64,000 nt of DNA from positions 620,001 through 684,000 of the forward strand of contig JAEBUN010000015.1 in NCBI GenBank assembly GCA_023014365.1, written 5' to 3'. The position numbers and the translations under genes are program-made. Under the pieces are notes generated by a model. It worked only from the letters and a program-made list of their open reading frames with translations, did no database searches and was not told where the DNA came from. This DNA is from Lepiota brunneoincarnata (taxonomy: Eukaryota > Basidiomycota > Agaricomycetes > Agaricales > Agaricaceae). Shown here piece by piece: positions 3,150 to 55,616 of the stretch (position 1 is the first letter of the stretch; the number at the start of each line of letters is the position of its first letter).

Positions 3150-3305
3150 GACAAATCCACATTAGTTATTCCCGGTCATGCCCTGGCCCTAGATTTTAAG
3201 TCGAGGGTATATACTGAATACAATATACTTATGAGCAAATGGCGAAAATACTAAAACAAATGATCTACGTAAAACATATATAGATAACACCAAGGATGCG
3301 GAGAA

Positions 3306-6300
3306 TCAAAACAGACCCATTCCGCCCATATAGTTTTGAGACCACATGCTTTCATCCCAATTATTATCCCATTCTCCACTATAAGATTGAGACGCTTCTG
3401 GCATCCATTTCGTAGAAAATATTGATGGATCGAAAAGTCCAGCCACTTCGGTGGTTTGAGCATAAGGAACATTAGTCGTTGCATCCCATTCCGACGATCC
3501 AGGGTTTGTAGGAGGCTGTTGTGGAATTACCGAAGAGAATTGGTTGGACATTCGAGACGAGGCCATCATCGATCTAGTATCAGATATGGATACGGGCAGG
3601 CTAACAGGGAAAGGATGTGCAGGAGGCTGTTTCCCGATAACTCCTCGTGCGCCAGCACCAACATCGAGAGTATCCATTCTTCCCTCTATTGGCCACGGTC
3701 GTTTCTGATTGTCCTCAAGTCCCCTCTTCCGCTTGCCTATAATGAGGGGACCATTCTCTTCCGTAACCTCTCCAGCCCGAGGCTTCAAGCTCTCTATCTC
3801 CATAAACGTATCGAGCGCCTTCCAACAGCGACGGGCCAGCTCCCAGGTGAATCCAATAGAAGCCAAAGCTTCCAGGCACTTGAGGAGATGTAACTGTGTC
3901 TGCAAAGCAGACGTGGGCGACACTGTTGTTGTGTTACTCCCACTTCCCGGTTGTGCCTGACGCAACTTGTACCCAGAAAGATGCGCGATTGCGACAGTGT
4001 AGATGAGGTAGATCATGTTTGGGTTGGTGTGGGAGAGTGCTGGGGAATTGTTCGCCGGGTTTGGCAGCGCAATAGCCTGCGATTGCCGATATTTTTCCAA
4101 GAGGACGTTAAATGTAGAAGCTGCCTCCAGAAAAATATCTGTTGCTTGTTGGTTCAACTGCTCCCGAGAACTATTTAGAGAACAAGGTCAAAGTCACGTT
4201 GGATACCGAATACCGGCGTGATAGATTCGGACACGACTTACATAGGACGATAAAGAAGGATGATTGCCACGTGGTAGAGCATATTGATTTCCAGGACGTC
4301 CCGCCGCGGTTGGTGTCCGATTGAGATGCGATACTGCATGGGAAGGGAATGGTGCCACATGTCTAGCTCTGTTCTCAAATGTGAGAGTTTATCGGGAGGT
4401 GTCTGCGCTGATGGTGAAAGGTAGCCGAGGTAGAGGTGAAAGTTGATCATTGAAATGACTCGACATAGCGAAACTGCATAAGTGAAAGGAGGTGATGGAT
4501 TGACGTCAACATCTGGAGGTCGTGAGTGTGTTGCCACGCCAATCGAGTGCTTCAACACGTCCGAGTTTGCGGGAGGTCGACCCATCTGCAACGATAACAA
4601 GAGATCAAGCATCGTACAAACGCCCCAGACATTTTCGCGTAGCTGAGCGTCCTCTGGAGACCGTCGTAGGGCTTCATTACTCGTTGAAACTTCATGCAGC
4701 TGCAGGTCCTGGGCCATTCGAACCGCCAAACCTAGAATGAACGCGATCAGACACAAATTTAGCAGAGAGAGAGAGAGAGGTCCAGATTTACCGGTAAGAA
4801 TCCAGGCCTGGTTTTCATTCCCCTTCCCATAATCCCTCAATGCCATTAGCAACGAAGCTTGTACGAGTTCCAACGAACTCCCCTTCTTCAGTAATGTGCT
4901 GAGAGCCGTTCTTGCCTGCTCGTACCATAAATCCGCAGCGATCTTTCCCGCATGTCCCCCAGTTCCAGGAAATTGATTGGGTGGAAGGGGATAGTCGTCC
5001 GCTATATGCACAAATGGACAGCACGAGTGTCGACGTGAGTTCTGATTTAATTGACGGTGATAAGAGTATTGTATCGAAGGTTGCTCGACTCGGTAGTAGC
5101 GGGTATGATGGGTGTGAATGCTGATAATACACATCTAGGAGGCGCGACAGGATGTGAGAAGGTGGAAGGTCGATTTGATTCGTCTGCGGAGGTACAAAGT
5201 TCGATTGGATCATAGGAAGCGGTGTATATGTAGTCAGGTTCCGGTGCGGAGAGATCGACGGTACGCCTACGAGCAGTTAAGGAGTGTTAGGTATAGGCCG
5301 CTACCCCCAGAAAAGAATCCGGACTGACCAGTAGCTCCCTGTATACTCATTCGCATCACCAAGTCCCAAAGCCATATCCATATCCGGGTTATCTTGCAGC
5401 CTAATCACAGAACCGCCATGCAGAGACACAGGGTCCTGCTCAATCACCCGAGGCCGATGAGCAGGATACGTCAACTGCACTGAGTCCGACATCGGCTCTT
5501 GTGCGTCCATGTAAGGCCCAGCGGCCTGATGTCCCCTCGTAGGCCCGCTCTCCGCCCATTCATCCTGCCCTTCAACTGACATAACCGCAGGCGACAGCCC
5601 ACGATCCCCTAGCTGCGCTCGCACCGAGCCAGGCGATGTAGCACGATCCGTGAGCCGGTCATGGGTACTAGCCCTCTCGAATGATTCTGGCCTAAGCGTC
5701 TGGGTGAACGGGATCTGATTGACCGAGGAGCCCCGCCGTTCCCCGCCTCCCGACCTCCTGGCCTCTTCCTTCACCGACGCAGGCCGCGCAGAGCTCGACG
5801 TAGATGCAGACTTGGTTACTGTTGTCGACGAGAGCGTCGAAGGTGGGGGTAGCAAGGTTTTCACGGGGGCCTCCTGTGCGGACCGGGGTGTAAATGGGGC
5901 AAACGAAATAACGAGTTCTTCCACAAGTCTGGCCGAATCGCACTTGGTCCAGACCGTCTTGTGCGCATCCCACACGTCCTGCGTGCACGTTTTCGACTCG
6001 GAATGGAGCGTTCTGATGATTCTAAGGAAAGGGTCGAAGGGTTCGCTGCCGTCGTCATCTTCCTTCTTGGGTAGTTTGGATAGGTACAAGCCTAGGAGGA
6101 TCTCCAAGATTGCGACTCGGGTTTCCGTGTAGCGGAGGTATCCAGACGGTGGCCCGCGACGACGTGGTTCTTTGGAGTATAGGCACTCGAGTTTGTTGTC
6201 AACGCAAAAAGCGCACGGGTCGAGACCATCGCACTGAATAGAATCTAAACAAGTCTTTGATAGGTGCGAAGCAGAGCGAGACCGACCTTTTTTCTTTTAA

Positions 6301-26002: not shown

Positions 26003-28006
26003 TTAGGCGGCGACCTCCAGAGCCTTGACCATGCCAAGTTCTCCACGGACGAGCTTGATGGTATAGCCATTGACAGGTTCCGAGCCAAAGTCCTTCTGAG
26101 TGTCGTACATCTTGTGTATGGGCTTCCTGGCATTGACAACATGAAGGACATGTTTGACGTCCTCATCTTCGAACATATCTTCAACCTGGGAAGGCAGCAT
26201 AATCTTGTTCTCGCTACCGTCAAAGAACTTGGGATCAACGCGAGCTTTCACAGCGGCTTCGAGTTCGGGATCCGTAGGCGCGAAAACGTTCTTGACAAAG
26301 TCCATGGTCCTTTGGACCTCGTCTTCCGTGACCTTCTTGTTGACATCAGCGGTACCCTGGATAACTGTTTGGAATTGCAAATCATGAGCACTCCGCTGGG
26401 TTCAATGATAGAACGAGTGTACTAACTCGGACGAATGAGGTCGAAGGCACGATCAAAGTTGTCTTCGGAAACATCGGACAAAATGTCAACGCTTTGAGCT
26501 CTCATCTGCTTGTAGGCACCCAATACGACCAACATGAAACGAGTATATGAGACAGCGATCTTGGCGTCATGCCATTTCGCACACTCCTCCTCGGACGCGA
26601 CTCCGCGGATAGAAGAAGCAATTGTGGCAGCAGCCGAGAGTCCACCGGTAAAGGCGAGGTGAACACCAGACGAGAAGAAGGGGTCAATGAAGCCTTTTGA
26701 AGTAGTCAGAACAAGGGGCCTCTTGGTTGGGGGGGGGGGGGGCATGAGAGTGTACTCACAGGCTGCATCACCACATAGACGATAACCGGGACCGGAATAA
26801 CCATTGGCAGAGTAGGAATAATCGGAGGCTTGACGGACGAGAGGACCATCTTCCTTATGTACCATCTTTGCGCCGTGAATGAAGTCGCTACTGAGACCAG
26901 GAGCGAGATGGACTTGATCCAGGTAGAAGTCCTGAAGCGAGAAGTCGGGTTTGCCGGATTGTTCGCGGAGCTTAGCACGCTTCGTGATCGACTTGGCGTG
27001 ATCCATGACAATGCCAACAGAGGCGAGGTTTTCGGCGAGTGGAATGTGCCAGGCCCAGCCAGTCTCGTCTAAATCACAGAAGAGATTGATAAAAAAAAAT
27101 CAACCAGGTGACTGATTATACGCGAACTGACGCGCTCACCTGTCAGCGCTTCAATCCAAATAGCATTCTCCCTATTGGTTCCTGGTTTATACCGCCCAAA
27201 GTCTTTCCAGTAGCCCCAGACGGCAATGTTCTTCAAACTCTCATTGTTGTGCCTGTTTTTCAAATACTTGGTAGACATGACACCAGCCCTGCCAGAAGCA
27301 TCAACAAGGAACTCGAACGTGATGCGGCCCTCGTTGCCCTCGCGATCCTTGTAGGTGGCAGCAATCGGACGGCCTTTGGGGTTATTGTGCTCGAATTCGA
27401 TGGAAAGGACCTTGGTGTTCTCAAACACCTTGGTGCCAGATTCCTCAGCATGACGAAGAATCAAATTGTCGAATTCCGATCGAACCTTGATCGCAGAGGG
27501 TTCTCGGGTCAGCCGATGTGAATACCCTTCAACCGTTGATTGGATAAACTCACGACATTCCACGAACCGAATTCAGGGCCACGAGCAATAAAGTCGGTAT
27601 AACCCTCACGCTTGTGCTGGTTGAATTTGATAGCAGCGCCGGGCTTTGTTGAAACAAAGTACTCGGGTCAACATCGCGCAAGTAGGCCACTCTCCCTCGC
27701 ACACATCCTCACCTTGGGACAAAAGCCTTGAGCCTTGACCTTCTCCTCAGCATCAATGAACTTCAAGAAGGCGCGGACCGAGGGCAACAAGCTCTCTCCG
27801 ATATGGTATCTGGGGAACTGGTCTGCCTCGAACAGGGTAACCTCGAAGCCTTCGCGGACCAATGCAGAGGCCGCGAAACTGCCACTGGGGCCACCACCGA
27901 TAACGAGGATTTGGGTCTTGGAGGGCTAATGGTCGTGTGAAATTGGAGTCAGAGAGCCGCTGAATGTAGTGACCACAGGGGGAATCAGACTCACGATAGG
28001 AGACAT
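26003..28006 (-). CDS. flavin-dependent halogenase
   Basis: Start ATG at 28006-28004, with an intron after MSPI. The second exon begins PSKTQILVIGGGPSGSFAAS, the GxGxxG FAD motif, and continues FEADQFPRYHIGESLLPSV. Later blocks are VVRSEFDNLIL, FLVDASGRAG, and DETGWAWHIPL, the WxWxIP motif diagnostic of flavin halogenases. YRLCGDAACFIDPFFSSGVH and LAFTGGLSAAATIAS (second FAD contact) follow. All junctions keep frame and the protein ends …VKALEVAA. These enzymes use FADH2, O2 and halide to form HOX and halogenate aromatic substrates, partnered with a flavin reductase. No PKS or NRPS lies in the window, so the substrate is unknown. A TATA-like GTATAAAG sits at 28075-28082. A G14 tract lies in an intron (26729-26742). 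Confidence 0.93.
26729..26742. repeat. poly-G tract (G14) in a halogenase intron
   Basis: A run of about 14 G on the plus strand, C on the coding strand, lying in an intron. Homopolymers of this length are hard to sequence, so its exact length is uncertain. Confidence 0.8.
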
Positions 28007-43902: not shown

Positions 43903-46181
43903 ATGTCCCGCAGCCCTGGCCCTGGCCCTGCTACAATACACGATTCGTTCTGGAGGAACTCTCCCTCACCTAACCATGAGGAAGAGGAAGAGGAAGGTGA
44001 TGGTGGTCAAGAGTGGAACTATGAAGTGGTCGGAGAAGAGGTTGACGGCGAAAGGGTCAGGTATGTTCGGAAAATCACTGCCTCAGCCACGGACTTTTGA
44101 TTGATCCTCCTATCTAGATACGAGGTAATGTTCTCACCATTTCACCTTGCCTAATTTTGACCCTCGAGTTCAAGATCGACTGGGACAATTGGCGACGCAA
44201 AGATGGTACAACACAAACCTGGGACAATATTCACTCCTCCCACGTCAAGCAATGGAAGACTTTGCAAGCTCGGAGAAGACAATCGGTACTACTGGATTCC
44301 ATTGATATCGAACTCGATCCGTTCTCGGGAACCGATATTCACAACACCGAAACACGCCTTCGTGCACAGGCATTCGAAGAAAAGCTTGACGCACGACAGC
44401 GATATAGTCCCAAGCTCGAGGAGCAAATGACTGCCCTTCTCACGGAGAAGTTGGGACCTGGCTGGGACCTCGAATTCCAAGGATATTCCATCGTCGGCCT
44501 CCCAGATGCCCACAACGCCAGCGCGTGGTCTGCGGTTATCGACCATGCGTCAGCATCAAACCCAACCTCAATCAGCAGCGTGCGGACTCAACCAGGTCAA
44601 TGCCTACACCAGCCTCCTTCAAATTCCTCGTCATGGCGTTCATCATCACGGCCACCACTGCCAGCACAACAAACGTCTCCGAACAACTACCCCCAGAAAC
44701 GCAACCCTAGGAGGCACCAGTAGTGGGCCATCGAGGTACCCATGATTAGACCTCACTCAGCTGCTTCAGTCACGTCATTCGCTACAGGGAAGATGAAGTT
44801 CCGAGATTGCCAAGTATATCGGGTCGGAAAGGCAAATCTCCAAAGACTAGGTAAGTAGGAAGATGGTTCCTAGTTCTGAGCTGGATGCTTGACTTTGCAA
44901 GCAATAGCCTACGCCTGCAAACGTCGATGCAATGGACGAAGATAGCTCAATCAAATGCTGCCGCTCCGATATCATTTATGAACGACGTCGATGACGAGGA
45001 ATTGCCACCGGGAATATCTCAGTTTCAGTATCTTGAGAAGGGGTATATCTAGTTAAGCTCTTTGACTTCTGGCGGCTTTCAGAACGAGCTAACAACGGCC
45101 TAGTGCGGATGGGATTGACCAGCCTAGTGTAGCATTCCAGATCGGATGCGACTTGCAAGCGCTGTGAATTTGCTTCAAAGTGCGATTGCCAGGACATCTC
45201 TGACGTGGTAAATAGCAAAGGCCAGAGAACCTTTGCATACAACAAAGCTGTGAGTCATTCAAGGCCCATATCCCACCGGGATGATATTGACATTTATCAG
45301 GGCTTATTTAGATTCGACGTTCCAAGAGGTGTTGAAGTGATTGAGTGCAACAAAGTAGGCTCAGTCATAAGAGACTCAGCATACATCGTTTTCATCCAAG
45401 AGCCGCACTAGGTTTGTCGCTGTGGCCCGAATTGTCGTAATCGTGTCGCTCAACGCCCGCGAGACGTTCCTCTCGAGATTTTCAAGACTGAAGCAAAAGG
45501 ATGGGGTGTTCGTGCCTCGATTGATATTGTGCGCGGTAAGGTACTGGGAATGTATTCTGGGTGCGCCAACACTTGCTCCCCCTTTGGTCGTTACTAATAT
45601 TTCCCTAGGTGCCTGATGTACGCAAAAAGTGTTGTCCAGAGACGTGATACTGATACAGGGCTGCAGAACGCGCCAAGTAGCCCTGGAAATGGACACGTTG
45701 ACAGGAGGCTACTGCTTTGATCTAGATGGGCAAGAATATTTAGAAGGGAGTGGGGAGGATAGACTGGCGGAGGACGGGAAATTTAGCGTGGATTCAAGAA
45801 CTTGTGGGAATTGGACACGATTCGTCAAGTACGTCTCTATCTATTTTGCGTGATCATCATAATTGACAGTAATGCAGCCACTCGTGTAGCCCAAATATGA
45901 CTATTTACCTTGTGGTATATGATACAATACCCGCCGTACGTATACTCCACTCTTCGGTGGAGCAGTTTTCACATTTTACCATGTCGAGACAGACAAATCG
46001 CCCATATATATTTTTTGTAGCACGTGAATTCATCAAAGCCGGGACAGAACTCACTGTGGACTATGATCCAGCTTCTGCCGACCCTCAGAGCATGGAAAAT
46101 CTGACCGCAGGAGATTCTGGGGGAATGAAGATGTGTTTCTGTGGTAGTGCAAGATGTAGGAACTATGTGCGGATGTGCTGA
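43903..46181 (+). CDS. SUV39/Clr4-like histone H3K9 methyltransferase (chromodomain + SET)
   Basis: ATG at 43903. An acidic N-terminus leads into a chromodomain spread over small exons, including a 7-nt exon (44118-44124): RVRYE then [21 protein letters not shown] Ser/Pro-rich linker and [15 protein letters not shown] precede the Cys-rich pre-SET (IGCD, then [28 protein letters not shown]). SET blocks are [49 protein letters not shown] and [11 protein letters not shown]; post-SET is [13 protein letters not shown]. Two +1 breaks occur, at 45153-45154 and 46001-46004. Between AERAK and ALEMD (about 45675) the frame needs -1 or +2. Such enzymes deposit heterochromatic H3K9 methylation using S-adenosylmethionine. 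Confidence 0.87.
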
Positions 46182-46282
46182 CACTTCACTTGTCAACAGT
46201 GGTATATTAGGAGATGTATATACTCAGAATGGATGGAGCACATTATACATCAATGGAGATGACCAGATCAGAATCCAGAAGC

Positions 46283-47286
46283 TCAGTCAACCTTATTACT
46301 CGCGCGGACCTTGCGAGAAGCTGACACCTTTGGAGCAACACTCAAAGCCTTCACAATGTCCTTGCCCAAAGCCCAGACAATCATACTCGGAACAATGATC
46401 CACAACCTTTGCACAGTGAGTTCATTCATTGAGCACAAACGAGGGGACATCAGCTCACCCATTAGGCAAAATCCAGTACAGCACCAAATCTCCAAGTTTA
46501 TTGTGTCCTACAGCACAGAAGTTGCAATAATATTCTTGGGCCCAGTAGAGAACGGTTTTAGCGAGGGTCATGAGGGCAGAGCCAAACCCAATCACAGGGG
46601 CGCCAGGCCACTCTGCGACATGGGCGAGGTAGACGTAGGCCAGATTGAGGACCGTCTCGATTACGTTCAGGAACGCTGTGTAAAACAGAAGGGAAAAAAA
46701 AAATCACGCATCAAGGGGGGGACTTGACGGGCCCCGGAGAAAGGGGTGGCTGCGGATATACATACACTGAGCGTTAGTGAACCCGTTGCCTTCCTGTAGC
46801 GCTGCCACGCCATAGACCTAGATAACCGTTTTGCGTTAGTGGGGTTTGGGTATTTGGCGTGATTAGGAGTTGCTGCGCACCAGGTCCACCTATAGGCAAG
46901 TGTTATGGAGAAGGCGGTGAGATTTGACAGGAAGGGACGGCCGGGGTGGGGATTTACGTACCTCTTGGTAAATCGCATAGGGACTCCAGAGCCAGTGCAG
47001 GTCACCGCCCTATTCAATGATTTCAGGTGCGTTAGACGCTCTCCGGTCAGCTGTCTCTTCTTTGGGCTGTTGTGGAAATGAATTGGGGCTGACCTTCATT
47101 GACCTAGGACTGGAGCGCATGCAGAAAAAAACAAAGAAGGAAGTAAGCCGTTGATGTCGTGAAAACACCATGTGTCGTAGGGGTGAAGGGGACGTACCGC
47201 ATAAAGCAGTAGCCTGCATCCCAGGCAATGATAGGGGCTGTAATTGTAAACCAGGCTGTTATCCACCAGTACGTCTTGACTGCCAT
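46283..47286 (-). CDS. fungal multi-span membrane protein, EBP/EXPERA-like topology
   Basis: ATG at 47286-47284. About seven small exons, one only 9 nt (46889-46881), splice in frame to MAVKTYWWITAWFTITAPII then AWDAGYCFMRPRSMKGGDLH. WLWSPYAIYQEVDLVYGVAA and LQEGNGFTNAQSFLNVIETV follow. Further helices are VIGFGSALMTLAKTVLYW and LWIIVPSMIVWALGK, and the C-terminus is Lys/Arg-rich. The WDxGYxFxRPxSMxGGxLHW block recurs in fungal proteins with four to five helices, which I recall as unnamed. Resemblance to sterol-isomerase-like EXPERA proteins is topological only. Intact frame. Confidence 0.75.
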
Positions 47287-49016
47287 ATTATCGAAAATCG
47301 AACGGTGGGGAGGGTTGTGGGAAGGAAAGCTGGTTGTCCTTCGTCCCAGCTGCTGGCGATCCCACGAAGAGGTATTTTTAGGAGACTGCTCATCTGGGGA
47401 TGGGTCACGGGTCACGACTATGAGCAAAGCAAAGAGCCCGACACGCTGTACTTTGTGGGCTTAGCGAAGCTACCTACTCGACTATTCGGTTGTCATTGCT
47501 CGCAGAGCAGAGCAGACTTGACATTCTCGCGGGCCAGCCGTTGGGTCCCTCCCCAGGGGCGACACGATGGAACTGCCAATGGAGTAAAGACCATTTCCGT
47601 GCGTAACTTCCGATTGGTTGCAATTTCCAGGTCCTCGTGCTATGTCATGAGTGCTCACGTATTTTGTCTTGAGGCCCAAATGTCTCCGCCGTGCCTGAAC
47701 AGTCTACTGCGACAAAACATTCTCAACTCGAAAATTCATTTCGCCCTTTTTCCGGCGATACGTACTCCGGTATAGTGTGATTTGGGTGAAACAATAATCA
47801 AACATGGAGGGATTGAACCGGTCAGGAGCGGATTTGACATTGGCCGCAGACAGCCTTGTCTGGTTCATGGTTCCCCTGGTGTGCGCTGATTGGTCGATAA
47901 TCAGCCGCACTGTCATGCTTCTCGATGCTCTACGGACACCGTGAGTTTCAACGGATAGGTTCGCACGGCCATTCCCAGAACAGCCATTGGACAGAATATT
48001 TATTGCTTTTTCCGACGATCGGAAAACCAGTGCCACCGGAATTATGGCTCTACACATGCGTGCTCGTCTTTAACGCGCGATAATGCGGAAGTGTGGGTTT
48101 CATTTTCCTCTTTGTGCTAGGACTGCTGGAAAAATGGGAACGATCGCCAAGTATGGAGGTACTTGATTCTGCTGGTTTTATTGTCAGGTTGCAAAAAGAG
48201 AATCGAGCAGCATCCACAATGGCGTCACGCTCCCCATCCATATGATTACCGGCCCAATCCGCCACGAAGCCAAGGATACTCCCCCCATATCAGGAGGGAG
48301 TACCTTCTCAGTTGTTCTGCTCATTTTGGACCTTGGTTCCTGCGCCCGAAAATCGACAAATCGTCAACGTGGCTGATGGTCCGGGATGTGTTTAAACTTG
48401 CACTCCGTAATTATGTCTCGGGATCTACCTGATGGATAGCGACAGTGAAAGGTTGGTGGCGCCAGCGCCCCAATCCTCGCATTTTCAGCACTAGAGTGAA
48501 GTTCTCCTGTCATCCCCAGAGTTTTTCTGCCCGTCACTGCAGCCTGCGATGCGTCGGTGGGTTACCGGCCCCTTCCCTCTTACGTCCGTCAACGGGTCCT
48601 CCATTGGCGGGCAACGGCGGCGATGGCCAAACAAAGTTGAAAGTTCATACAAAGGATCTTCCTCTTTATGGGCGGTGCGCGTTACCCTTGGCAGGGGTTC
48701 CTTTTTCGTCCTAGGCGGCCCTGGCCACAACCCGCTTTCAAGCGAGCACGTACAAGGGTTCATGTCCTCCACTCCCTTGGCAAGGCGGCAACCCCCTCCT
48801 CCCCTCCACCGATATTCGGCCTGATGAAACTCATGATGGAACAGCTGTTATCCGTGCACAGGAGCGGCGTCAATCGGTGAAGTCGTGTACCTTATGCGTA
48901 ACAGCATGCGTAACGTCAGGCACCGGCAAGGCACCTTTTAGAACCGGAAATTTATCCAGGGTTACGTGCGCATGGTGAATAGAATCATGCCCGACTCGGT
49001 AGAGGCCAGTCAAAAA
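47287..49016. other. 1.7 kb intergenic, nothing recognised
   Basis: No supported gene. Short overlapping frames on both strands around 48445-48824 show no domain. The right end is the promoter of the repeat-peptide precursor. Confidence 0.4.
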
Positions 49017-49023
49017 TATAAAA
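49017..49023 (+). promoter_or_regulatory. TATA box of the repeat-peptide precursor
   Basis: TATAAAA about 86 bp upstream of the start codon at 49109, a standard distance for strongly expressed fungal genes for small secreted proteins. Confidence 0.6.
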
Positions 49024-49108
49024 GGCCCTGTGGCAGTGGGTTATAATACGGAAAATCCCTACTTCTTCCCCTCCCCTTCGTACTATTTTATCTGCTCTAG
49101 TATTCACG

Positions 49109-49620
49109 ATGCGAGTTCAACTCCTCTTCATTGCATCTGTTCTTGGCGCTGCTCTGGCTGCTCCTGTCCCTGTACGTCCCCTTCTCCATTCTTCATGCTC
49201 TCGTTCACCGCTGACGGTTTCCCGACCTGTGCATATAGGTGGACGCTGAAGCTGCAGCTGCCGTTGCTGTAGGTGTTTCCTTTGAACTATCCATACACCA
49301 GCCTTTGACTGAGTTGGTGACCTTTGCAGAGAGCACCGAGCATCGCCGATTGGAGGAGAGAAGCTGACCCCCAAATTCGTAACCAAGGCTGGAGGCGCGA
49401 GCCCGAACCTCAAATTCGCAACCAGGGTTGGAAACGTGAAGCTGAACCTCAGATTCGCAACCAAGGCTGGAGACGCGAACCTGAGCCCCAAATCCGTAAC
49501 CATGGCTGGAAACGCGAGGCTTTACCCCAAATTCGCAACCATGGCTGGAAACGCGAAGCGGATCCCCAAATCCGCAATCAAGGTTGGAAAAGGGAGGCAG
49601 AGCCTGAACTGCAGGTGTGA
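49109..49620 (+). CDS. Kex2-type repeat peptide precursor, alpha-factor-like architecture
   Basis: Exons 49109-49171, 49239-49268 and 49330-49620 encode about 127 residues. Signal peptide MRVQLLFIASVLGAALA, then a short acidic/Ala pro-region (APVPVDAEAAAAVA) and PSIADW. Then six repeats with an exact 39-bp period: QIRNQGW three times, QIRNHGW twice, QIRNQGW once. Each ends at a dibasic RR or KR (Kex2 site). Each is preceded by X-Ala/X-Pro dipeptides (EADP, EPEP, EAEP, EPEP, EALP, EADP), as expected for Ste13-type trimming. The tail is EAEPELQV. Predicted products are secreted heptapeptides beginning with Gln, which could cyclise to pyroglutamate. No CaaX box and no Cys. The function is not known. 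The alternative is a dikaritin-like RiPP core, but no UstYa-type oxidase is in the window. Confidence 0.88.
49351..49593 (+). repeat. 39-bp tandem repeat in the peptide precursor
   Basis: Trp codons of successive units fall at 49351, 49390, 49429, 49468, 49507, 49546 and 49585, exactly 39 bp apart. Units differ at many third positions but keep the QIRN(Q/H)GW core and processing sites. That is consistent with selection on the peptide rather than very recent duplication. Confidence 0.92.
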
Positions 49621-52600
49621 TTAGCGAAGTCTATGGTTGAGATGGGAGCCGGAGGTTAGCCCATGAGCCGTGCGGGTGCTATGGTTCGCCCAATATCGGT
49701 CGGGTGCTGTGCCGTTGAAAAGGGAAGGATTTACGGCTCTCAAGTCGGCGTTAGGATTTATTGGGGGAGAGCAAATATTATCGTGATTCGAGGGTCGACA
49801 CCGAGTATGTTGACTCTGGCCACCAGAGAAGAGGGTTTTTTTTTTTCGGTTATAAGGCACAGACGTTCTTTTGTTGCCATCACATCTGTCAGTTTTGTCA
49901 ATATTCCCAACGTTCCTTTCTGTAACAAACGACTACTCTCCTTCATTATATCCCTGTTTAATGGGGGCTCAGGGAGATCAGTAGGTCACCACATTGTCTC
50001 TTTTGTTACTTGCAAGAAGTGTAAATTATGCATACTAGTATCCAAGCAGGATTAATACAGGTTTTCCAATTGTCTTCACCTGGACAGGGGTGTAGCAAAA
50101 ATCAAAATGTCTGATTGGAAGAATAAGGGAACGTGCATCCCCCCCCCTCACCCTCCCCGCTCGGGAACGAAATGTTTTTCCACCGCCCCGAACAATGTCA
50201 GAAACGAATGGTTCTCAGCCACCAAACGAGCCTGATTGACTTTGGGGATACGTCTACATGTGACAAGGGGTCCTCACCCCCCAAGACTCACTGGTAGGCA
50301 ACTACGCAGGCCATAGGATGGGGATCCCATATAGCTGGGGCCGGGTGTCTGCTTATACAACTAGTTGCGTGGCCCACGTAAGGTGAAGAGCGTTCTAGGT
50401 TGCATTAAATGGAACTATCGAGAATGGGGAGAGGTGATCATTATGTTATTGACAGCTCTCCATGATTCGATGTTGAGGGCTTCTTCTGTCATGACATGTC
50501 AATTCTGTATCACTATGGCAGGGGCAGGGGTAAGGATAAAAAGCCTGGATCCCCAGCAATTCTGTAGATGGCTCCAAGGGCGAAAGGGCTGGGTAATGAT
50601 CTTCAGGGTCAGACGTTAAAGGAATTTGAGGAATGAAACAAGAAACTTGGTGATAATCAAGACGAAGTGCGTCAGGGTCGATTCAAGGACGTCAGCTTTG
50701 ACATCGTCGTGCTCTGGCAGGCGATACAGAAGCTTTCATAGCCGATGGGAGGCGTCGGGAACAGTGGGCAATCGGTTAGGGTCTCGCACTTTTGAGGCCC
50801 TGAGTGCGGTGGAATAAAGCGGTGTTAAAGAGAGCCGGATGTCAGACCCTTTTGATCACTGCTTTGGCGACCAGGAAATAGTCTTTTGAACGAAACCCAA
50901 ATTCACTAGATACTTAGGGGAGTCGACTGTAAAGGGAAGGGGTACACAGGCTATTTTTGGTTGTTGGATGTAAAGCCGGACCGGAGATGCGGACCGTAAA
51001 ACAGGAGGTAATTCGCATGCCATTATTCTCCTGGCCTGATTTCTTCACAAAAGCCCTACAAACACCACCCAAAGCATCTGAAAACGACGAATACTTACAG
51101 TTAAGTCCGTTTTGGATGACCCAGGAATCGTAAAAGAGGTTTGGGGCACGCCTAACGTCATTCTGACAACCCCTAAGAACCCTTGGCCAGTTACCAGTCT
51201 ACCCGTAGTGTCCGGTTGCTCGCCATTCTGGAGTTGCACCCCTCGTCTCCCTAGCAGTTATCTCTTCCCCGGTCAGCTCGGTCTGGTCCCTGGCTGTTAT
51301 CGAACCTCCCTCGACTATAGTATTCTGATAAATAGAGGCCATTTTAGTTGATAAATTAGCTGAGGCAACCGACCCTCTCTTCCCGTGTCGGGCGGGATTT
51401 CTGGCATAAGGGTGTGGAAACGCATACTGTTACGTGCCTAAACTCTGGTTCGTGGTCACGCTCAAACTTTGTGTATGAGCAGGCCTCGGTTTTCATTTCC
51501 AAATGCTGCGGACGATCGCAATATTTCCTGCGGGCTTGCGTCAGAGAAGGAGCCTGGATCCGACCTATGACAAGGGCATGTTCTCCATTCCTAGTCAACG
51601 TCGGATTATGAGCTAGGACCGCCAACCTAGGGTGTGTGCACTACGCATGTCCTCGTGTTCGACAGCCCATAAGGCTCGAGCTTCGAACACATGTATAAAG
51701 GTGAGATCGGTATTCTGTGGGTTTGATATCTTACCGAATGTCTTGACCTAGATGGTATAATGAATAGCGGATGTTTACGGAGCTGGCATGAATAATCTCG
51801 CAGTCATAACCTCGGATGGTGTAGGTTTAAGATCCAGCATAATGACGATCTAATTTGTGGGTGAAACATCCAAACGTTCCGCAGCCTCGGACCTAGCGGA
51901 AAGGGAGCCCCAAGTGGGCAGCGTTTACACGCAGCTTGCTTGTGTGTGCGTCGTCGATACCCCCACTTGTTCTTCACCTTACCAATGGAGATATACAACA
52001 TGAACTTCTCAAACCGAACATCCAAGGAGTTAAGGCTGCCTATCTCCTAATCAGCCACCCCCCGCAGGAAATCCGTGGAATGGAAGGAATTGCGAAGAGA
52101 CCAGCTTTTCATTTGGTTCCGTCATGCAGACCCATTGACAGCAAGACATGCTTCATTCTTCCATGAAATGCGCAGTTGATGGTCCGAAAGCATCCCGTCG
52201 AGATATTATCTATTTGTCATTTCTCCTTTTCACTACTTGCACGGTTCCTCATTGAGCTCTGGGGATCGGATCGATTATGAGAGTGCAAACGCAAGCATGA
52301 CGGTGTCTTCATCTTTCAAGGACCCGGTCCTCTCTGTTTTCGGGTTGGCTGCCGAGCACTTCAGAATTCGTACATAGCCGTGCTTCAACAACACGAAGTG
52401 TGCGATACACCATTGGTACATCAACAGCGAAACCCACTCATGTCATGGTCTGTTGAATGGTTCCTTGCAGACTTCCTGTCTCCCTGCGTTGAATACATTT
52501 GGGGGGTCTCCAACGGGTTCTTTAGGGTGTTTAGCTGTATGCCCTGGGCAGGCTTTCGGGTAGATCCATCAGTAATGTGCCTCGCTGGCACTCGATTCAT

Positions 52601-52983
52601 CCATGGATAGTGAAGCTAGTCCATGACATGTTTCTTGTGAGACACTTTTTCCCCGTGAAGAGTCAAGCACCCTGAATGTGACTTCTTGACTCTTCTAGAC
52701 GTACTAATCGATTTCGCAGAGCTTCTTGAGCCAGGCTCGGGCTTCCGAGTACTGTCAAAGCAGATATGACAGAGATGTGCTAGTGGGTTGCACATGGGCG
52801 AATGTTCAGGATAGAACCTTGATCAATAGTGTAGATAATCATGTTAGCAATATGTTCTGCCCAGGTGGTCGTTACGGGGCGAGTGACACATGCATCTCTT
52901 CGAGTCACGACATGCGATGGACTCTCCATTTTCGTATCATCCCAAAATCTTATCGCTCTGTTCATCGTCGCTTCACCTCGACC
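49621..52983. other. 3.4 kb intergenic, nothing recognised
   Basis: Between the peptide precursor and glycyl-tRNA synthetase. Many short frames on both strands, none with a domain, signal peptide or coherent introns. A C-rich run lies at about 50139-50147. I see no tRNA. Confidence 0.4.
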
Positions 52984-55616
52984 ATGTCAGCACAGGTTAA
53001 CAAAACCGCCCACCCTTTTGACAAGTCCCCGCCTCGAGGCCCTGTTGAACAGGAGGTTTTTCTACGCCCCCGCCTTTGAGATCTATGGAGGTACGCTGGA
53101 TATTTTATTCTAATCAGACCTTTGACTGGACTTTTACACTACAGGCGTCGCTGGGTTGTACGACTATGGTCCACCGGGCTCTGCGCTGCAAGCCAACATC
53201 ATCGCCGAATGGCGCAAGCACTTTATCGTGGAGGAAGGCATGCTTGAGCTCGATACTACCATCATGACCCCTGCCCCCGTTTTCGAGACCTCGGGCCACG
53301 TAGCCCGCTTCGCTGATTGGATGGTCAAGGATACCAAGACAGGCGATGTGCTCCGTGCAGACCATCTTGTGAAGAACGTGCTGGAGGCTCGGTTGGCAGG
53401 GAACCTCGAGGCCCGTGGCATGGCAGTTGCTCCGCAAGACGAGAAGGATAAGAAAAAGAAAAGGAAAGGCGCGAAGGTTACGGCGGTTGTGTTGGACGAC
53501 TCGCGGGTGAAGGAGTACGAGACGATTTTGGCACGGGTATGTCCATGTTTTGCCGTATATCGAGTATTTTCCTGGTTGACCATATTTTGAAAGTTGGACA
53601 ATTTTTCCGGTCCCTGAGCTTGGACATCTATGTCGTGCACACAATATTCGTAATCCGGATACCGATAATGAAGTCGGGGAACCTCAGCAATTCAATCTCA
53701 TGTTCACCAGTAGCATTGGTCCTACGGGTCAGCATCCAGGGTATGTCGTAGTTCGCGTCTGCCTTGATTTCGACTGACTTTGGGATCCTGCAGTTATCTC
53801 CGACCTGAGACCGCTCAAGGTCATTTCCTTAATTTCTCTCGCCTCCTTGAATACAACAACGGTCGCGTTCCCTTTGCGTCTGCTCAAATCGGACGTTCTT
53901 TCCGCAATGAAATTTCACCCCGCGCTGGTCTCCTACGTGTGCGCGAGTTCACAATGGCTGAAATCGAACATTACGTCGATCCGGAGGACAAGAATCACGA
54001 CAAATTCAACGAGGTTCGTGATGTCGAGATCGCCCTTCTCGACCGGCATGTGCAAGAGGCCGGTAGCAACCAAACGATCAGGATGAAGGTTGGCGAGGCC
54101 GTAGATAAGGGTGTCATTGCCAATCAGACCCTCGGCTATTTTGTTGCGCGTATATACCAGTTCCTCGTCAAAATTGGCATCAACCCCGAGCGCCTCCGAT
54201 TCCGTCAACACATGGCCAATGAGATGGCTCACTACGCGACGGATTGCTGGGATGCGGAAATTCATAACTCTACAGGGTGGACTGAATGTGTCGGCTGCGC
54301 CGACCGTGCAGCATATGATTTATCCGTTCATACGGCGAAGACAGGTCATCCGCTCATTGTCCGACAGGCTCTTAAGGAGCCTATTGTAACAGAGCGGGAG
54401 GCCGTTGAGTGGAACAGGAAGAACTTGGGAAAGACTTACAAACAAGATGCCGGTGTTATTCAGAAGCTTGTGGAAGCGCTGGATGAGTCTGGTCTGGTCA
54501 AGCTTAAAGGGGAACTGGCACAAGGGTGAGTGGCGGTCAACCCCGCTCTTCCGATCACCCGCTTATTGGCTATTTGGGTAGCTCCGCCGCCATCTCTTCC
54601 TCGGACGGAGGGGAGTTCCAGCTTACCCCCGATGTCCTGACCATCGAGCGGAAAGTCTTTAAGCAGTCCAGTCAGTTCCGAACGCATCTTTCCGTTCTTA
54701 ATCTTGCAACTCACATCCGCTGGTTCCCGTTGTGTGACCAGTACGCGAGTTCACCCCTAATGTTATCGAGCCGTCCTTCGGTCTTGGGCGCATTCTTTAC
54801 ACTTTACTTGAGCATAGCTTCTGGAGCAGAGAACAAGATGTCGAGCGTGGTGTGAGTATATTACGCAATTGTCCGCATGTTCGAAAGATAACGGATTCCT
54901 TGTACTAGGTCCTCTCGATTCCACCCCTAGTGGCTCCCACCAAGGTTCTAATCGTACCTCTAAGCGCTCGCCTGGAATTTGACCCGCTGGTACAAGAAGT
55001 TTGTACGTCACATTCTCTTATCTCTCCTTGTGCCTCAGTATTGACACATTGCCTCTCCGCATTTCCAATCATCTTTAATCCATACCTACAAAGCCACAAA
55101 ACTCCGCCGTGCTGGAGTTTTTTCTCGTGTGGATGACTCTAATACATCCATTGGCAAACGTTATGCCCGCAACGATGAACTCGGCACTCCGTACGGAGTA
55201 ACGATTGATTTTGCCTGTACGTACAACCCTCCCCACCTTTGTGCTACTGGGCTGTTTCACTGATTACCTACCCCTTCGTTTATGACCTTGATCCATTGCG
55301 CCTGCTGGCCGCCACGAAATGACGCGAAACTTATGAACACGAATGCGAATACAAAATAGCCGTACAAAACCGGACCATGACGCTTCGGTAAGTTCCAGAG
55401 GTTCATTATAGGGCCTCGTGTTTCTCTATCTTTATGAACTTAACGTTAAATCTTCGCTATCTTTCCATTATCAGAGAGCGAGATACCATGGATCAGCGGA
55501 TTGGCTCCATCGACGACGTGATTGCGACTGTCACGGACCTGGTGAATGGGAATATTGATTGGGCGGAAGCTTGCCAGCGCCTACCTGCCTACGATGGCGT
55601 TCAGGCGGTCGATTGA
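52984..55616 (+). CDS. GRS1: glycyl-tRNA synthetase (eukaryotic class II)
   Basis: ATG at 52984 ([15 protein letters not shown]). Family blocks in order: [38 protein letters not shown], then a Lys-rich insertion. [39 protein letters not shown] and [20 protein letters not shown] (motif 2) follow. Then [36 protein letters not shown] (motif 3) and the anticodon-binding domain ([43 protein letters not shown]). It charges tRNA-Gly in the cytosol and usually also mitochondria. Two surplus bases disrupt the N-terminal third: C in 53027-53030 (after FDKS) and C/T in 53612-53615 (SGP|ELGHL, making TGA). The remaining ~1.3 kb of coding sequence and every splice junction are clean, so loss of function is unlikely. 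Confidence 0.93.

Follow-up and report, generated by a model that had tools for sequence, protein, structure and literature searches.

The locus considered here lies in a window of 64,000 nucleotides (the whole stretch of DNA that was analysed), corresponding to C9:620001-684000 in the 55.6-Mb, 95-contig genome assembly of Lepiota brunneoincarnata. Its principal feature is a gene on the forward strand (49109..49620, stop codon and two predicted introns included) for a predicted 127-residue precursor of the Kex2-processed repeat protein (KEP) type, with the start ATG at 49109 and the stop codon at 49618-49620. Exon 1 (49109..49171), MRVQLLFIASVLGAALAAPVP, encodes a putative signal peptide called by eye and from hydropathy (mean Kyte-Doolittle value of 1.75 over residues 2-20), and is separated by predicted intron 1 (49172..49238; 67 bp, GTACGT...ATATAG, phase 0) from exon 2 (49239..49268), which encodes the short Ala-rich pro-region VDAEAAAAVA. 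Predicted intron 2 (49269..49329; 61 bp, GTAGGT...TTGCAG, phase 0) is followed by a single W-terminated unit, R-APSIADW-RR (49330..49359), by six 39-bp units of the form [X-A/X-P]x2-QIRN(Q/H)GW-(K/R)R (49360..49593), and by the C-terminal tail EAEP-ELQV with the stop codon (49594..49620). All of these features are on the forward strand, as is a putative TATA-like box, AATATAAAAGG, seen by eye at 49015..49025, 84 bp 5' of the ATG. Both introns were taken from the original prediction; their borders are canonical GT-AG and the joined exons give an open 127-aa frame, but the choice of introns remains a predicted one, as a listing for any GT/GC-AG pairing, confined to models with the same C-terminus, contains many other in-frame models. 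The protein ends in ELQV, and a basidiomycete-type CaaX box is absent. The APSIADW segment is a seventh W-dibasic unit, within the pro-region, on which the original prediction was silent, as it was on the EAEP-ELQV C-terminus. A translated search of the organism's own genome recovers both coding blocks (C9:669109-669213 and 669324-669617).

The six repeat units read EADP-QIRNQGW-RR, EPEP-QIRNQGW-KR, EAEP-QIRNQGW-RR, EPEP-QIRNHGW-KR, EALP-QIRNHGW-KR and EADP-QIRNQGW-KR, with residue 5 of the core being Q in four units and H in two, and the closing pair RR in two and KR in four. Tandem Repeats Finder describes the array as 5.9 copies of period 39 with 77% matches and 0% indels. KEPs are recognised by tandem near-identical peptides split by KR, RR or KK, and here every unit (6/6) ends in KR or RR. 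Each of the seven dibasic sites has W before it and [ED][AP] after it, and two XA/XP dipeptides follow in all seven cases. Translation, Tandem Repeats Finder and alignment of the units thus bear out the coordinates, an open frame across the two predicted introns and the six-unit, 39-bp array with Kex2/Ste13 patterning that had originally been proposed.

The heptapeptide is under real constraint between units, and the earlier suggestion of selection on the peptide is upheld. Among the 13 codons of the aligned units, third positions vary in 12 columns whereas first and second positions vary in 3 and 2, respectively, and the pooled Nei-Gojobori proportions across the six units are 0.69 for pS and 0.099 for pN. 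When the same variation was placed at random among the units 2000 times, no randomisation gave as few amino-acid differences (35 differing codon pairs observed versus a null mean of 86.5 and a minimum of 54); the units of one gene are not independent lineages, and these codon statistics point to constraint without amounting to a calibrated test. With silent sites close to saturation, the units look like old copies in which the peptide has been held constant and not like a fresh duplication.

As judged from its deduced protein, the gene very probably encodes a KEP that is processed in the style of alpha-factor. The precursor would enter the secretory pathway, where a kexin would cut after every dibasic pair, a KEX1-type carboxypeptidase would strip the basic pair, and an enzyme of the Ste13/DPP-IV type would take off the two X-Ala/X-Pro dipeptides. 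The expected secreted products are four copies of linear QIRNQGW and two of QIRNHGW, probably pyroglutamylated at Q1, with computed MH+ values of 901.46 and 910.46 (884.44 and 893.44 for the pyroGlu forms). Pyroglutamylation had been raised as a possibility beforehand and is plausible, since peptides of the Coprinopsis cinerea KEP 490115 and of other KEPs are described as carrying pyroGlu (PMC9769878). The APSIADW unit has an AP dipeptide at its front, from which X-P trimming could release SIADW (computed MH+ 591.28). Families for each of these steps are present in the genome, their role on this precursor being putative. Adjoining P_proprotein and Peptidase_S8 matches on contig C47 mark a kexin, the fragment having as its best solved-structure match an entry called 'Kexin' (E 4.6e-29). 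This genome gave a single P_proprotein match, a count that speaks against the processing reading in view of the three KEX2 genes reported for C. cinerea (PMC9769878). DPP-IV-type genes are represented by six exon matches in five places (best Pfam E 1.9e-62, with that frame matching solved DPP4 at 5.9e-18), and S10 carboxypeptidases by 35 exon matches. Oligopeptide transporters (OPT) account for a further 32 exon matches in the same genome.

Searches among proteins place the precursor in a family with a shared layout and divergent cores. In a single-sequence search, the matches at E <= 10 among 1050 candidates were from Termitomyces (6.4e-6) and Pleurotus eryngii (0.033), together with P0003 (0.11). 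A profile built from the window protein and these three matches, which score high by construction, returned 15 proteins at E <= 1 of 7998 scored. New at E < 1e-3 were proteins of Lyophyllum shimeji (2.8e-12), Arthromyces matolae (6.2e-5) and Sanghuangporus weigelae (2.4e-4), all of them, like Termitomyces, Agaricomycetes, as well as P0006, P0008 and P0009. The profile also matched Zasmidium cellare (E 0.031), which we take to be an ascomycete. Twelve of the 15 profile relatives contain two or more W residues that are followed by a dibasic pair, while P0008, P0013 and P0015 lack W altogether; because the search was seeded with the W-dibasic motif, the 12/15 indicates the existence of a family and not its frequency. 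The original prediction had looked to orthologous precursors in related genomes, and this expectation holds in part: the dibasic-(X-A/P)n-core-W layout is retained among the relatives, but the QIRN[QH]GW core is seen in none of the 15. The cores differ strongly between genera. QYRSPDW occurs twice in P0003, preceded by dipeptides of the same type as here.

Within the window, a Zn2Cys6/Fungal_trans transcription factor gene, nirA-like by name in some relatives, lies at about 3300-6300 on the reverse strand. Its best match, from a rough gene model, is in Macrolepiota fuliginosa (72%), followed by a protein at 67%, Leucoagaricus sp. (67%) and Leucocoprinus birnbaumii (63%). Macrolepiota fuliginosa and Leucoagaricus sp. 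belong to the Agaricaceae, as does Leucocoprinus, and on this one gene the host falls within or close to that family. Protein searches gave no named match for the precursor in these three genera, in which the neighbouring Zn2Cys6 gene was matched; either a lineage-specific core or a missing annotation of the gene in these genera may account for this. A flavin-dependent halogenase fragment is found at 26425-27099 on the reverse strand (Trp_halogenase Pfam E 1e-4; best solved match RadH, E 1.4e-34). Upstream of the precursor is a SET-domain fragment (45873-46178, forward strand) and downstream a class II tRNA synthetase fragment, glycyl-type by eye (53768-54526, forward strand); no functional link of either fragment to the precursor gene was seen. 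An Rfam scan of window positions 46000-53000 gave nothing relevant.

No second copy of the precursor was found in the 55.6-Mb genome by searches with the core, with a two-unit pattern and with the protein itself, all of which KEPs of quite different sequence would escape. The two-unit DNA pattern had eight genome matches, six at the precursor and two out of frame in an unrelated repeat protein, and none in the reversed control. The paralogue candidate that these two matches gave at C13:843526 was rejected as an out-of-frame reading of an Ala/Ser/Thr tail. The protein encoded there (C13:843 kb; L025 about 1540-2500) is LysM-like by eye and secreted, with a long tandem Ala/Ser/Thr/Pro tail of GSATPSDAA-type units. 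A match to the core at C18:667113 is a single copy with no precursor around it and was set aside as chance. The looser single-unit pattern W-dibasic-[ED][AP]-[ED][AP] had 138 genome matches versus 4 for the reversed control; among the matches listed (100 of the 138), most belong to one dispersed repeat, six to the precursor locus, and five are isolated. A looser-pattern match at C9:223440 is one base off this dispersed repeat. The repeat, which contains TGGAGTCGAGAAGCCGAAGC, occurs on many contigs, and two copies frequently lie some 7.2 kb from each other; a mobile element carrying the motif close to both ends is suggested by this spacing.

The mating system of the host appears to be encoded elsewhere. 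STE3 exons gave 14 matches in two places (C15:390-441 kb and C58:157-158 kb), and two small ORFs with CaaX ends lie beside STE3 exons in C15:435-445 kb, at 438244 on the forward strand and 442122 on the reverse strand (L052 3244 and 7122). Both match PF08015, the fungal mating-type pheromone family, at E 4.6e-4 and 0.016 (21.6 and 16.7 bits, with a cut-off of 22). The CaaX scan covered 50 kb around the STE3 genes in five 10-kb stretches, with the 64-kb window as control, and the count gave no excess (two small ORFs versus two in the control). Neither candidate pheromone ORF passes the stricter E[RH]-plus-CaaX filter. The weight of these candidates thus comes from their position beside STE3 genes and from the PF08015 matches, both of which are under the cut-off. 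A classical basidiomycete pheromone/receptor locus is therefore likely on another contig, the receptors being firm and the pheromones less so. A search of the same genome for STE2, run without a positive-control genome, gave no match, while the STE3 search worked. Use of STE2 for mating is not known from basidiomycetes.

What the secreted peptide does is a separate question from how it would be made. Its most likely role, on which our confidence is evenly balanced, would be that of an extracellular peptide cue to self, apart from the CaaX/STE3 mating system; the original prediction had likewise placed it outside classical mating, which is plausible given STE3 genes and candidate CaaX pheromones on another contig. 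Substantial but lesser weight goes to the proposal that the same precursor and processing yield a peptide that acts on other organisms as an interaction factor. Vogt 2022 describes six C. cinerea kep knockouts, 490115 among them, without a growth or fruiting phenotype, and its authors favour biotic interaction (PMC9769878). These knockouts weaken a role as a developmental signal and, together with the strong differences of the cores between genera, speak for an interaction factor. However, the synthetic KEP peptides described in the same paper inhibited none of the tested bacteria (PMC9769878), the six units show strong conservation of the core, and peptides of the pattern Q-[IMY]-[RK]-x3-W are also present in Coprinopsis and P0003, all of which count against this proposal.

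The layout of the precursor is that of ascomycete alpha-factor precursors and would also suit a true alpha-type mating pheromone for a STE2-like receptor. This is improbable given the STE3 genes and candidate CaaX pheromones on another contig and the lack of any match to MF_alpha or MF_alpha_N in a Pfam scan, in which the precursor had two weak matches below the cut-off (NUP50 and Tachylectin). A sequence search of the PDB with the precursor gave nothing relevant (two matches, E 0.32 and 0.61). We consider it similarly doubtful that the gene encodes the precursor of a cyclised, ustiloxin-like RiPP of the dikaritin type, for which a secretion leader, Kex2 sites and repeats would also be expected. 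UstYa-type genes (DUF3328) are present in the genome, with at least 18 exon matches, and Umemura 2020 gives a UstYa-type gene nearby for 103 of 1680 basidiomycete KEP genes (PMC7329392). In that survey, putative-basidiomycete-pheromone-like KEPs number 76 of 7878, and 17 of these 76 have such a gene nearby (PMC7329392), so that a STE13 signature alone does not exclude cyclisation. However, the search for UstYa-type oxidases, which had been advised at the outset, found none of the 18 matches on the precursor's own contig, which favours a linear product, and the core is without Tyr. Least likely of these readings is an array that arose by chance or as a minisatellite without coding function: long antisense open frames do cross it, but variation in the plus frame is concentrated in third positions, the randomisations never reproduced so few amino-acid differences, and homologues have the same layout.

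Returning to the cue-to-self reading, five heptapeptides from three sources fit Q-[IMY]-[RK]-x3-W: QIRNQGW and QIRNHGW of the Lepiota gene, QMRPPSW and QYKAPSW of KEP 490115, and QYRSPDW of P0003. Three sources are few, and P0003 was chosen by similarity; KEP 490115 was not, and its match to the Lepiota peptides in length, in Q1, in a basic third residue and in W7 thus deserves a test. Most cores of the other profile relatives do not fit. We raise as a speculative idea, with rather low expectation, that there may be a mushroom family of peptide hormones of this pattern that are made by alpha-factor machinery and sensed without STE2, through an orphan GPCR or by OPT uptake as for Qsp1. If the common ligand pattern is real, the receptor becomes the question raised, and a common receptor is a testable hypothesis. 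Basidiomycetes hold many alpha-factor-style precursors without assigned function or receptor, as presented in PMC9769878 and PMC6339444, and this locus offers a clean and tractable case for peptidomics: its core hardly varies, its motifs predict exact masses and no second copy was found.

The original prediction implied that an alpha-type layout is surprising in a basidiomycete, but precursors of this sort are on record from Basidiomycota in Le Marquer 2019, Umemura 2020 and Vogt 2022. In the first of these, basidiomycete KEPs with clear STE13 signatures and a canonical structure are reported and hormones distinct from sex are proposed (PMC6339444), and the average in Umemura 2020 is 5.30 KEPs per basidiomycete strain (PMC7329392). 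The Lepiota gene adds one more member to this known kind of precursor and is a good anatomical case of it; what is newly added is the common heptapeptide pattern and the SIADW-like unit 5' of the repeats. No literature on QIRNQGW was found in a search of main texts, and nothing beyond Cryptococcus Qsp1 was found on STE2-type sensing or on Agaricales peptide signals.

Compared with known systems, the gene shares with ascomycete alpha-pheromone precursors the Kex2/Kex1/Ste13 layout and tandem peptides, and the C-terminal W of its core is as in Sordariomycete alpha-pheromones with their PCW motif (PMC6339444). It differs from them in having no MF_alpha match, a 7-residue Cys-free core, and a host with STE3 and candidate CaaX pheromones. 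With the STE13-signature KEPs of Basidiomycota in PMC6339444 it has in common the architecture and the proposal of a non-mating hormone, the comparison being one of precursor layout. Cryptococcus Qsp1 is matured extracellularly by Pqp1 and imported by Opt1 before it acts (PMC7537855); it is likewise a short secreted peptide cue of a basidiomycete, although no repeat precursor is described for it there. Peptides ending in -AADW have been reported from fruiting bodies of Pleurotus and Lentinula, the Pleurotus SGVAADW coming from a KEP with a STE13 signature (PMC9769878). The corresponding precursors, Pleurotus KEP 1091723 and Lentinula KEP 2599 (PMC9769878), have W-terminated peptides and in this resemble the Lepiota gene with its APSIADW unit, but the latter has just one ADW unit, and its repeats are of an unrelated sequence. 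Among the closest parallels is C. cinerea KEP 490115, in a group for which STE13 motifs and a C-terminal W are common to many basidiomycete members (PMC9769878). When expressed in Pichia, KEP 490115 gave QMRPPSW, QYKAPSW and pyro-QYKAPSW by cleavage at RR and removal of XA/XP, the peptides reported from C. cinerea itself being from other precursors (PMC9769878). The Lepiota core, QIRN(Q/H)GW, is a different one from another mushroom family and was compared at the level of the peptides, but the two precursors are alike in their RR sites, their STE13 XA/XP dipeptides and a heptapeptide with Q1, a basic residue 3 and W7 (PMC9769878).
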